This document shows positions 11,185-59,959 of a stretch of 64,000 nt of DNA, piece after piece (positions within the stretch are counted from its first letter, which is position 1; every line of letters starts with the position of its first letter). The position numbers and the translations under genes were made by a program. Under the pieces are notes generated by a model. The model was not told the origin of the DNA, did no database searches, and saw nothing but the letters and a program-made list of their open reading frames with translations. The stretch comes from Candidatus Woesearchaeota archaeon (lineage in GTDB: Archaea > Nanobdellota > Nanobdellia > Woesearchaeales > GW2011-AR4), in NCBI GenBank assembly GCA_016180235.1, contig JACPBQ010000005.1, positions 35,873 to 99,872 on the forward strand. Direction: 5' to 3'.

Positions 11185-11310
11185 GGGCCTGTAGTTCAGC
11201 CTGGTTAGAATGCTCGAGCCTCCAGAAAAGGCGGCAAAACTGATAACCGGCTGTTAGACATCGAGAGCCAAAAGCCGAGAATGGTCGACAGTTCAAATCT
11301 GTCCAGGCCC
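11185..11310 (+). tRNA. tRNA-Ile(GAT) interrupted by about three introns (31/32, 37/38, variable region)
   Basis: Acceptor GGGCCTG/CAGGCCC, anticodon stem CTCGA/TCGAG, loop CTGATA|A, T-stem GACAG/CTGTC; 126 nt reduces to 74 nt with 22+14+16 nt removed. Confidence 0.8.
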
Positions 11311-11392
11311 ATCATACTTTCGAACGAAATGAGAAAGCTCTTGAGGGCTTATAAGGGCAGACTGCCCTTATGTTCGAACTGAGCAGGCCCAT
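11291..11392. repeat. Degenerate direct repeat of the tRNA-Ile 3' end (11291-11312 and 11372-11392) flanking a small inverted-repeat segment
   Basis: GTTCAAATCTGTCCAGGCCCAT versus GTTCGAACTGAGCAGGCCCAT, 9-bp exact CAGGCCCAT; TAAGGGCAG-A-CTGCCCTTA palindrome between. Confidence 0.6.
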
Positions 11393-45142: not shown

Positions 45143-45928
45143 ATGTACAAAAGAATAGTCTCGATGGCTCCAAGCAATACAGAAATTCTATATGCCTTGG
45201 GGGTTGAGGATAAAGTTGTTGCTGTCACAAGATACTGCGATTTTCCAGCTGAGGCAAAGAAAAAGCCGAAGATAGGGGGATGGCTTGACATCAAAGAGGA
45301 ATTAGTCATGAACTACAAGCCTGACCTGCTGCTTACCTCCACTTTTGTGCAGAATGAGATAACGGAGAAGTATAAGAAAAGAGGGATGAATGTCGTGCCA
45401 TTGATGCCTACTACCTTGGTAGGGGTCTTTAATTCTGTCAAGAAGATAGGCAAACTTGTGGGAAAGGAGAAAGAGGCAGAGACTTTGGTCAGGGACATGA
45501 ACAAAAGGATAAATGATGTCAAGAATAAGGCTAAAAATGCTGATTTCAAGCCAAGGCTTTACATAGAAGAATGGCATAAGCCGCCTACAATATCTGGCAA
45601 TTGGGTCCCTACTTTGGCGAGGTTTGCAGGAGCGGACTATAGTTTAATAAGAGCAGGATACCACAGCAGGGAAGTTTTTCTAGATGAAATAAAAAAATAC
45701 AATCCCGAGTTCATCATTCTGTCAATTTGCGGGCTGAGCGACAGGGCTCCAAAGGAATTGATTGTGAAAAGGGAAGGATGGGAGAATCTAAGGGCTGTAA
45801 AAGAAGGGAATGTTTTTGTCTTCGATGATTCTTTATTGAACAGGCCGGGACCAAGGCTTGTGGATGGCTTGGAGAAGCTTGCCAGGATACTGCATCCTGA
45901 AGTTTTCAAAGAGATGGGCATGCATTAA
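45143..45928 (+). CDS. BtuF-like cobalamin-binding periplasmic-fold protein lacking a signal peptide
   Basis: RIVSMAPSNTEILYALGVEDKVVAVTRYCDFP; KPDLLLT; no hydrophobic leader. Confidence 0.85.
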   Translation: MYKRIVSMAPSNTEILYALGVEDKVVAVTRYCDFPAEAKKKPKIGGWLDIKEELVMNYKPDLLLTSTFVQNEITEKYKKRGMNVVPLMPTTLVGVFNSVKKIGKLVGKEKEAETLVRDMNKRINDVKNKAKNADFKPRLYIEEWHKPPTISGNWVPTLARFAGADYSLIRAGYHSREVFLDEIKKYNPEFIILSICGLSDRAPKELIVKREGWENLRAVKEGNVFVFDDSLLNRPGPRLVDGLEKLARILHPEVFKEMGMH

Positions 45929-46673
45929 ATTTACTTTTCATTTTTTCAATGCAAAATTCCGCAATTTTTTTCAAATTGATTATATCCTCCTCATTGTATT
46001 CGACCAATAAATTAAGGTAGTAATCATCCCCTGCTGCCCGGTACATCCTCCACAATCTCAATGCGTCTCCTCCATAAAATCTTTCTATGATTCTTTTTCT
46101 TCTGATGCCCAATGTTTTTTCCACTTCCTTTAAGCCTCCTTTAAGCTCCAATCTGCCGGTTATGGTCTTTACATCGAAATTCGGGATATCTGGAAGCAAA
46201 CCCGGATATAGCTTATCAATAAATGGAACGTCAAAACTAGCTCCGTTGAATGTGACGATTAGCTTATATCTGCTCAATTCTTTTTTTAATCCCTTTAAAT
46301 CAAAATTGATGCCTTTAATCATTGTTTTTGTGTCTATGCCGTTGAATAATCCTATAAGGGTTATATCATCATTCTTTTGGTCCAATCCTGTAGTTTCGAT
46401 ATCAAGGAAAATGGCATCTTCTTTGAAAAAATCATACAGCCGGTAATATTCCGAGCTTGGGAGTATTTTTTTAAAATAAGAAGAATCAAAATTGTACAAT
46501 GCCTTCCTTGCTTCCAGGATTTTCCTGTCGTAATATAATTTTCTTTTTTTGCCTATTCCGGCTATTTTTTCCCTATTAAGAAAAGAATCCCAATCCCTTA
46601 TGCCCTGCTGCCATAAGCTTTCCTCCAGGCCTCTTTTTACCCTTTCAAGGAAAAGGAAGGTGTTTTGGATCAT
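45906..46673 (-). CDS. RNase H-like exonuclease, YprB family
   Basis: IFLDIETTGLDQKNDDITLIGLF, TFNGASFDVPFI, YNEEDIINL. Confidence 0.85.
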   Translation of the reverse strand: MIQNTFLFLERVKRGLEESLWQQGIRDWDSFLNREKIAGIGKKRKLYYDRKILEARKALYNFDSSYFKKILPSSEYYRLYDFFKEDAIFLDIETTGLDQKNDDITLIGLFNGIDTKTMIKGINFDLKGLKKELSRYKLIVTFNGASFDVPFIDKLYPGLLPDIPNFDVKTITGRLELKGGLKEVEKTLGIRRKRIIERFYGGDALRLWRMYRAAGDDYYLNLLVEYNEEDIINLKKIAEFCIEKMKSKFNACPSL

Positions 46674-47204: not shown

Positions 47205-47283
47205 AAACTTATAATTTCAGAAATCCTTGTTTATAAACCTGACGCGGGAATGTCCAGTGCAATATAAAAGATGTCCAGTGGGG

Positions 47284-47349
47284 AAAAGTGCGTATAACTA
47301 TCTTTTGCGAACATTTTATGTTTGGAAAAAGTATGTTATGCGGACTTTT
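47284..47349. repeat. attC-like imperfect palindrome, site 1
   Basis: AAAAGTGCGTATAAC...CTTTT...GAACATT...AAAAG...GTTATGCGGACTTTT; homologous to site 2 at 48655-48732. Confidence 0.6.
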
Positions 47350-47411
47350 GACGCGTGTTGCAGGAATTTCTTTGAAAGAACAATCAAAGCCCAATTTCAC
47401 TGACATTTATT

Positions 47412-47482
47412 ATCATGAAAATCCTCGGATTTTCAGGATGCAAAGAAATCCTATAAAGACTTGGCGACATTTTTGCGCATAA
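47412..47482. repeat. Family A repeat, internally deleted remnant
   Basis: TCATGAAAATCCTCGGATTTTCAGGATGCAAAGAAATCCTATAA...CGACATTTTTGCGCATAAC matches both ends of copy 2. Confidence 0.65.
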
Positions 47483-47528
47483 CGCTTCAGAAAAGTTTAT
47501 AAGTAATTAAGACTTGTAAAAAATCAAC

Positions 47529-47978
47529 ATGTCAGGCAACAGCGTAACATTGCACAGGGTCCTTAAAGCGGCACCTGAAAGGGTTTATCGCGCCTTTACA
47601 CAGGCTAATGCGCTTGCATCCTGGATTCCGCCCTATGGGTTTATATGCGTTGTTCACAATATGGACGTGAAAGTGGGCGGAAATTACAAGATGTCATTCA
47701 TCAATTTTTCCACAGGCAACGGACATTCTTTTGGCGGAAAATATCTTGAACTTAAGCCAGGCGAGTTCTTAAAATACACCGACAGATTTGATAATCCAGA
47801 TTTGCCCGGGGAAATGGTCACCTCTGTCTGGCTCAAGAAAGTTTCCTGCGGTACGGAACTTAAAGTTATCCAGGAAGGCATTCCGGCTGCTATACCAACT
47901 GAGATGTGTTATTTGGGATGGCAGGAGTCATTGGAAAAACTGGCAAAATTAGTCGAGCCGGAAATCCCGGATGGCTGA
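47529..47978 (+). CDS. SRPBCC/AHSA1-family protein
   Basis: LHRVLKAAPERVYRAFTQANALASWIPPYGF. Confidence 0.88.
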   Translation: MSGNSVTLHRVLKAAPERVYRAFTQANALASWIPPYGFICVVHNMDVKVGGNYKMSFINFSTGNGHSFGGKYLELKPGEFLKYTDRFDNPDLPGEMVTSVWLKKVSCGTELKVIQEGIPAAIPTEMCYLGWQESLEKLAKLVEPEIPDG

Positions 47979-47990
47979 TCAAATAATCTT

Positions 47991-48356
47991 ATGGCCAAAA
48001 AAGAAATTGCAATATCATTCCTGCAGCTAGCCTCTTCTGGGAAAGTGAAAGAGGCGTACGAGAGATATGTTCATTCTGATTTTATTCATCATAATGCTTA
48101 TTACAAAGGAGATAGAGAAACGCTTTTGAAGGGTATGGAAGAGAATTCAAAACAATTCCCCAATAAGAAATATGAAACACTACGGGCTCTGGAAGAAGGA
48201 AATTTAGTGGCTGTTCATGGAAAGGTAGCACTATCATCTGATAAAATTTTTTCAGTCATCCATCTTTTTCGTTTTAAAGGAGATAAAATTATAGAAGAAT
48301 GGGAAGGTGGACAGGAATTGCTCAAAGATTCTCCTAACGAAAACGGGATATTTTAA
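47991..48356 (+). CDS. SnoaL-like (NTF2 fold) protein
   Basis: YVHSDFIHHNAYYKGDRETLLKGMEEN...VIHLFRFKGDKIIEEWEGGQ. Confidence 0.85.
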   Translation: MAKKEIAISFLQLASSGKVKEAYERYVHSDFIHHNAYYKGDRETLLKGMEENSKQFPNKKYETLRALEEGNLVAVHGKVALSSDKIFSVIHLFRFKGDKIIEEWEGGQELLKDSPNENGIF

Positions 48357-48360
48357 TAAC

Positions 48361-48630
48361 ATGAAGTCAAGAATCTCTAATAACAAAAAAGAAATCTCTA
48401 CCGGTGTGGCGCACAAAGTGCCAGCCGAACTGCGAAAAGCCCTGACTTCTTCCTCGGCAGTGCGAGACGCGTGGAATGACCTTACACCACTTGCACGCAA
48501 TGAGTGGATCTGCTGGGTTACTTCCGTCAAGAAAGAAGAGACAAGAAGACATCATATCGAACGAGTATGCGCGGAGCTTTTAGACGGAAAACGCCGGCCA
48601 TGCTGCTGGCCCGGCTGCCCCCATCGTTAA
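48361..48630 (+). CDS. YdeI/OmpD-associated family protein (C-terminal type)
   Basis: VPAELRKALTSSSAVRDAWNDLTPLARNEWICWVTSVKKEETRRHHIERVCAELLDGKRRPCCWPGCPHR. Confidence 0.85.
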   Translation: MKSRISNNKKEISTGVAHKVPAELRKALTSSSAVRDAWNDLTPLARNEWICWVTSVKKEETRRHHIERVCAELLDGKRRPCCWPGCPHR

Positions 48631-48654
48631 AGGTGCCCGGTCACAGGTGTCTAA

Positions 48655-48732
48655 AAAAGTGGGTATAACATGCTTTAATGAACATTATTTGTTGCGGAGC
48701 GGACGTTAAAGCTGAGTGTTATACGGGCTTTT
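48655..48732. repeat. attC-like imperfect palindrome, site 2
   Basis: AAAAGTGGGTATAACA-T-GCTTTAA...TTAAAGC-TGAG-TGTTATACGGGCTTTT. Confidence 0.65.
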
Positions 48733-48744
48733 CCAAAAGAGAGG

Positions 48745-49173
48745 TCATTTCCTTTCCGGAACAATAATCCATGCAACTATATAAGCTAATATTGCGCCTC
48801 CGAAGCTAAGGAATACCAATAATAACCATATGAGCCTTATGACTGTAGGGTCTATTTCAAGGTACTCCCCTATGCCTCCGCAGACTCCTGCTATGATGCG
48901 GTTTTTAGAGCTCCTGAACAGCTTTTTCCCTTTTATCTGCTTTTCTTTCGGCAATTTAGCACCTCCGGGTTTTGAAAAGATGAAATACAGCAAGGCTCCA
49001 AGCACGCTAAACAGCACTAGGACAATCATCCATAATAATTTTTCAGGCATGCTCATCCTCGATGCCAGGCAATGGATCATCGCCCAAACCCAAAAAACAA
49101 GCAGCAGGATGACCAGCAAAATAATAAAAACAACTATCCACAGCGGAAAAAATACGAATGCTGATATTCCCAT
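48745..49173 (-). CDS. PspC-domain membrane protein with PLDc_N-like N-terminus
   Basis: KLFRSSKNRIIAGVCGGIGEYLEIDPTVIRLIWLLLVF. Confidence 0.92.
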   Translation of the reverse strand: MGISAFVFFPLWIVVFIILLVILLLVFWVWAMIHCLASRMSMPEKLLWMIVLVLFSVLGALLYFIFSKPGGAKLPKEKQIKGKKLFRSSKNRIIAGVCGGIGEYLEIDPTVIRLIWLLLVFLSFGGAILAYIVAWIIVPERK

Positions 49174-59824: not shown

Positions 59825-59946
59825 GCCGCGGTCGCTTAGCCTGGTATAGCGCTGGATTGCTAGAAGCATCGCTTCTTAGAAACCTACTATACTTTACAAA
59901 AATTCAGTGTCCGCAAGGACTCGAGAGTTCAAATCTCTCCCGCGGC
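59825..59946 (+). tRNA. tRNA-Ser(GCT) with 39-nt canonical intron (59863-59901)
   Basis: Acceptor GCCGCGG/CCGCGGC, long variable arm TGTCCGCAAGGACTC, anticodon stem CTGGA/TTCAG. Confidence 0.92.
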
Positions 59947-59959
59947 GTTTTTTTTTAAA

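Follow-up and report, generated by a model that had tools for sequence, protein, structure and literature searches.

A probable integron-type gene cassette between attC-like hairpin sites in a Woesearchaeota genome

The window analyzed here, 64,000 nucleotides of DNA from a Candidatus Woesearchaeota archaeon, is part of contig C1 of a 1.04 Mb genome (G000) that is 80.8% complete, and carries a block of three genes between two attC-like palindromes. We consider it quite probable that this block is an integron-type gene cassette exchanged by a host Xer-type enzyme, and a cassette is the best reading of it because relatives and the genome's own contigs show exchange at the cores of these sites. 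In outline, single strands of the two sites would fold into hairpins usable by a tyrosine recombinase, presumably a host Xer-type enzyme and most likely XerA; exchange would occur at the G|TT of the R' box; and a circle with the AHSA1, SnoaL and OmdA genes and attC A would have entered attC B, behind the PspC gene, on its R' side, landing between the PspC attC (site B) and the left flank.

Both palindromes described by an earlier sequence-only reading are present, and by their internal asymmetry they have the same (direct) orientation, with the integron sense on the minus strand. Site A (47284–47349, minus strand) has its R'' box at 47335–47349 and its R' box at 47284–47298, and belongs to a family that has at least 40 members in relatives; site B (48655–48732, minus strand) has R'' at 48718–48732, R' at 48655–48669, and a branched tip. 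The sites are 1.3 kb apart and carry hairpins of 36–48 nt. attC recombines through its bottom strand, and in site A it is the equivalent of this, the plus strand, that folds better. As single-stranded DNA both sites fold more stably than shuffled sequences (z = -6.9 for A, -3.9 for B), and a search for AAC/GTT arm pairs with at least 12 of 15 complementary bases finds exactly two in the window, against a mean of 0.065 and a maximum of one in 200 random windows of the same first-order composition; palindromes A and B are far from chance. If accepted as attC, they form a CALIN, with at least two attC within 4 kb and no IntI. An Rfam gathering search returned tRNAs only; two tRNA genes in the window (11185–11311 and 59825–59947; 123–127 nt) are recovered by the Rfam model and not by ARAGORN, and probably contain introns.

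The three genes between the sites are transcribed rightwards and are those named from the sequence: an AHSA1/SRPBCC gene of Bacteroidota type (47529–47978; Pfam AHSA1, 97.5 bits), a SnoaL-like gene (47991–48356; Pfam SnoaL, 32.2 bits), and an OmdA/YdeI-like gene (48361–48630; Pfam OmdA/YdeI, 64.2 bits), the start of which is taken at the ATG at 48361. They run against the attC polarity, since the integron sense of A and B is the minus strand. The flanking host genes are both transcribed leftwards, a PspC-domain gene (48745–49173) whose 3' end abuts attC B at a distance of 13 bp, and an RNase_H_2 gene (45906–46673) that forms the other host boundary. By attC polarity, attC B would belong to PspC, and the proposed cassette (47298–48668, minus strand; 1,371 bp) would run from the TT of the site B R' box to the G of the site A R' box and comprise the three genes and attC A, its boundaries being drawn by analogy with the relatives G012 and G024 described below.

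The bacterial character ascribed to these genes holds for AHSA1, which reaches 85% identity to Bacteroidota proteins and is nested among Bacteroidota in a tree, where it and two further DPANN sequences make up a small clade (support 98/80; the deeper forks are weak). At least one of the three cassette genes is thus, by its sequence affinities, borrowed from bacteria, and the tree suggests that the gene was transferred once and then spread among these archaea. We note that other Woesearchaeota/Nanoarchaeota MAGs (L112, L115) have the same Bacteroidota-type AHSA1, with 92% and 85% identity, and that no R2-type (hairpin) site lies near the gene in these MAGs.

Bordering site A are two copies of the motif CACTGGACA (47251–47280, minus strand), upstream of a TATA-like box and placed as a promoter element. 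The genome contains 19 occurrences of the motif and none of the pattern read backwards; most of the 19 directly precede a TATA-like box. It precedes genes that by eye resemble MCM, RadC, a RadA operon, topoisomerase I, a Cas4-like nuclease, and a cassette antitoxin (besides the window copies, loci C9:272705, C9:246320, C9:242019, C2:78760, and C9:298190 in G000; L230–L248), and in relatives also several Xer paralogues. It may mark a replication and repair regulon, an archaeal analogue of SOS control.

The gap between the PspC and RNase H genes varies among relatives. It is ~60 bp long in G004 and ~270 bp in G002, where it includes a tRNA-like sequence; in G001, of the same genus as the window genome, it is occupied by a ParE/RelE-type toxin-antitoxin insert together with a hairpin of opposite orientation and a second long site; and in the window genome it holds sites A and B plus the three genes. 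Neither an excised circle nor a cassette-free copy of the exact window block was seen among the genomes compared.

A search for more copies of the palindrome, as the sequence-only reading had proposed, was made by Blast, pattern, and covariance searches and found at least four additional full copies within the window genome (C9:297306, C9:354299, C8:9124, and C6:120965) together with a half copy, and at least 40 in relatives, none of them outside a single family of DPANN (Woesearchaeota-like) archaea. A second model, built from 22 sites, matches 20 of the 36 genomes of this family at E <= 0.01, and in an order-wide scan at E <= 1e-4 matches 16 of 359 genomes, all within the one family; more diverged sites elsewhere could be missed, because the model was trained on this family. 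The sites are dispersed, single or paired, and are not in one array.

In consensus, the first half of a site consists of AAAAGTKCGTATAAC, 2–3 nt, an inner stem, and a variable tip, and the second half of the complementary inner stem, 0–4 extra nucleotides, and GTTATRCGNACTTTT. The AAC/GTT core is invariant, and the inner stems covary, their sequence changing between sites with pairing kept (CTTTTT/AAAAAG, GATTTAAC/GTTAAATC, TTTTAAAC/GTTTAAAA, CATTTTAT/ATAAAATG); z is below -2 in 33 of 47 inner hairpins. Tip length is highly variable, with folded hairpins of 33 to ~160 nt. The asymmetric layout of extrahelical bases seen at first in site B alone recurs in the family: the extra unpaired bases sit on the GTT side, and the strand reading AAC...GTT folds more stably than its complement in 31 of 35 sites. 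Covarying stems, an AAC/GTT core, strand bias, and one-sided extra bases are attC traits, and as foldable hairpins with this core and paired inner boxes the sites are of the attC type. The earlier caution that the outer boxes are inexact was justified, as GTATAAC/GTTATRC misses RYYYAAC/GTTRRRY at one paired position; the G001 toxin-antitoxin cassette has GCCTAAC/GTTAGGC, a full match to the R-box consensus. At 18 sites a gene ends within 60 bp of the R'' (GTT) side, against seven sites for the opposite side (p = 0.02), a moderate bias, with ORFs called mechanically, that agrees with units of a gene and its attC.

Cassette exchange is seen in one genus (g10), in which a hairpin site directly follows the stop codon of a gene identified by eye as TYW1-like. 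Five species are ~80% identical over the ~400 bp to the right of the AAC, the gene side, and unrelated to its left save for one 35-bp match between two of them. At this locus G024 has the site alone, with nothing more before the next gene (phosphoesterase-like), and in G016 and G022 both site and cargo are absent. G012 has a 4,158-bp insert, a restriction-modification cassette with a C5 methylase, Vsr, a PLD-like protein, and one unassigned gene; it starts with TTATATTCAC and ends with ...GAATATAAC, the hairpin, and G. Excision of this cassette in silico at G|TT leaves a sequence with 142 of 155 positions identical, and one gap, to that of the cassette-free G024. The insertion lies within the existing hairpin site, the cassette's own hairpin is at one end only, and there is no target duplication at the cassette boundaries. 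Another, methylase-rich insert is found in G023 and a toxin-antitoxin-like insert in G031; G030 and G031 have a common hairpin (72 bp) and left flank at different, neighboring gene ends, so that this unit sits in another place or orientation. Compared at the sequence level, the relatives show that cassettes with restriction-modification, toxin-antitoxin, or other cargo lie precisely at the junction of an attC-like hairpin behind a host gene and the former downstream sequence. The integron-cassette reading of the window is supported by this precise G|TT insertion with differing cargo and by the attC architecture of the sites; insertion at G|TT is seen in the comparison of G012 with G024, and would apply to the window block by extension.

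A second line of evidence comes from the window genome, where contigs C6 and C8 (L220, L223) end in an identical 99 bp, the assembler overlap (C2 and C9 likewise join by 99), and separate immediately after GTATAAC, with a naked dif-like site on one side of the fork and hairpin site E on the other. The fork means that one flank is joined at the core to two different partners in the sample; this could be due to repetition of the cassette or to population variation. The beginning of an unassembled gene seems to lie within the shared 99 bp.

The intI search that had been proposed returned Xer-type recombinases only. In the window genome, 80.8% complete, the sole match to an integron-integrase model is XerA (252.7 bits for NF040815, above the cut-off), and the IntI-specific patch of ~45 residues is absent; among the relatives, none of 148 genomes matches TIGR02249 at E <= 1e-60, where IntI1 as positive control scores 508.6 bits in the integron-integrase model. 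Directly upstream of xerA is a dif-like sequence, AAAAGTGCATATAA-TGCATA-TTATGCGAACTTTT (L026:6825-6858), and in most relatives within this archaeal order a similar site is found ahead of xerA, often 10–60 bp upstream. The outer arms of the hairpin sites match the arms of the genome's own dif at 10.7–11.5 of 14 positions, against a background of ~6.5. Since they match the dif-like site directly upstream of xerA, the recombinase is likely a host Xer-type enzyme, most probably XerA and not IntI. This link to Xer is not genome-specific, because the arms fit foreign dif sites about as well; the one genome-specific match found is the AAAAC start of three G004 sites, which equals one G004 dif arm. 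XerA is also present in relatives without hairpin sites, and G001, which is 96% complete, has sites and no XerA match. We also note that further Xer clades in the order have attC-like hairpins directly upstream of the recombinase gene (L192–L198, L211, L071, L074, L075). Xer paralogues with their own upstream hairpin are alternative candidates for the enzyme. The dif-like site upstream of xerA and the hairpins upstream of the Xer paralogues could correspond to an attI beside intI; no cassette was seen joined to either.

An IntI could lie in unassembled parts of the genomes or act from outside, and the block would then belong to a classical integron whose integrase is missing from incomplete assemblies or is supplied by other cells or elements. 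We think this unlikely. Archaeal integrons, mostly clusters without IntI, have been described from nine phyla, and attC also from Nanoarchaeota (Ghaly et al. 2022, PMC9668308), which bears out the statement that integron cassettes have been reported in archaea; IntI, too, is reported among these MAGs (PMC9668308), and the window genome is incomplete. However, IntI is found in none of the 148 relatives at the above threshold, with the control scoring as stated, the sites are dispersed, and their arms are dif-like and longer than R boxes.

Less probable still is a dif module driven by Xer, as in Acinetobacter pdif or IMEX, in which XerA would act on double-stranded dif-like sites and each hairpin would be two close inverted dif-like sites. 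The outer arms resemble dif arms and match the host dif, naked 34-bp sites with a 6-bp center occur near cassettes, and toxin-antitoxin cargo is typical of such modules. Yet the inner stems covary, fold far better than shuffles, and have tips of up to ~160 nt; exchange follows attC polarity and not a symmetric 6-bp core; and in place of two arms around a 6-bp center, A and B carry their 36–48 nt hairpins, with only some other sites naked.

The sequence-only reading had observed that similarity extends past the boxes and had offered a mobile unit bounded by terminal inverted repeats as an alternative; the similarity is real, but it exists because the outer arms are dif-like Xer arms and not transposon repeats. 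Palindromic, repeated, and scattered sites, and the inverted repeats that border the G001 toxin-antitoxin cargo, could suggest a transposon or MITE; we nevertheless reject this as very improbable, as A and B are direct and not inverted, inverted ends with a target duplication are lacking, and the G012 insertion, inside an existing hairpin at G|TT and with its own hairpin at one end only, contradicts it in the comparison with G024. That the hairpins are merely transcription terminators is hardly credible and was set aside: many do lie 0–30 bp behind stop codons, but several have no gene 3' end nearby, and cassettes are exchanged with base-level junctions at the AAC core.

Beyond the integron-type cassette itself, we tentatively suggest that these sites may constitute an IntI-less integron, in which dif-armed attC-type hairpins behind chromosomal stop codons are recombined by the archaeal host Xer, and that the family could be an intermediate between Xer and integrons, showing ordinary genes acquiring attC and becoming cassettes. 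Archaeal integrons are already known; the dispersed, IntI-less, and dif-armed form is new, and we call it a new variant because it combines sites dispersed at gene ends, dif-like arms, and the lack of IntI. In the open-licence literature we found no paper containing both 'Woesearchaeota' and 'integron'. Two questions still open are the origin of integrons from Xer recombinases and the way in which genes come by attC sites. In the present set of related genomes, dif-armed attC-type sites occur together with one locus in both its cassette-free and its occupied state. Through these sites, restriction-modification systems and bacterial genes would enter small archaea, a concrete route of transfer from bacteria to archaea, and it becomes testable whether a cassette system can be run by a plain Xer enzyme.

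The system can be compared with four others. In the CTX phage, attP(+) is a folded single-stranded hairpin that offers a dif-like site to the host Xer recombinases, much as proposed here, but there a phage genome integrates at one dif, whereas here small gene cassettes are found at many loci. The pdif modules of Acinetobacter plasmids (PMC6449649, PMC13141974) similarly carry toxin-antitoxin and other cargo between Xer-type sites and likely use the host Xer; their sites are short, double-stranded, and of dif type, whereas those described here are mostly folded, covarying hairpins of 33 to ~160 nt. With archaeal XerA/dif (PMC2958812) there is a common XerA-family recombinase, dif-like arms, and a 6-bp center; the Thermococcales dif is at the terminus and does not adjoin xerA (PMC2958812), whereas here a dif-like site is directly upstream of xerA and its arms recur in the cassette sites. 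Unlike integrons, this archaeal family has no IntI that we could find, its sites are dispersed at chromosomal gene ends, their outer arms are dif-like and ~14 bp long with R boxes one paired position off, and the orientation of the cargo is free; with integron cassettes, attC, and CALINs (PMC9668308) it nonetheless shares hairpin sites with AAC/GTT cores, covarying stems, strand asymmetry, insertion at G|TT, clusters without IntI, and mixed cargo of bacterial type.
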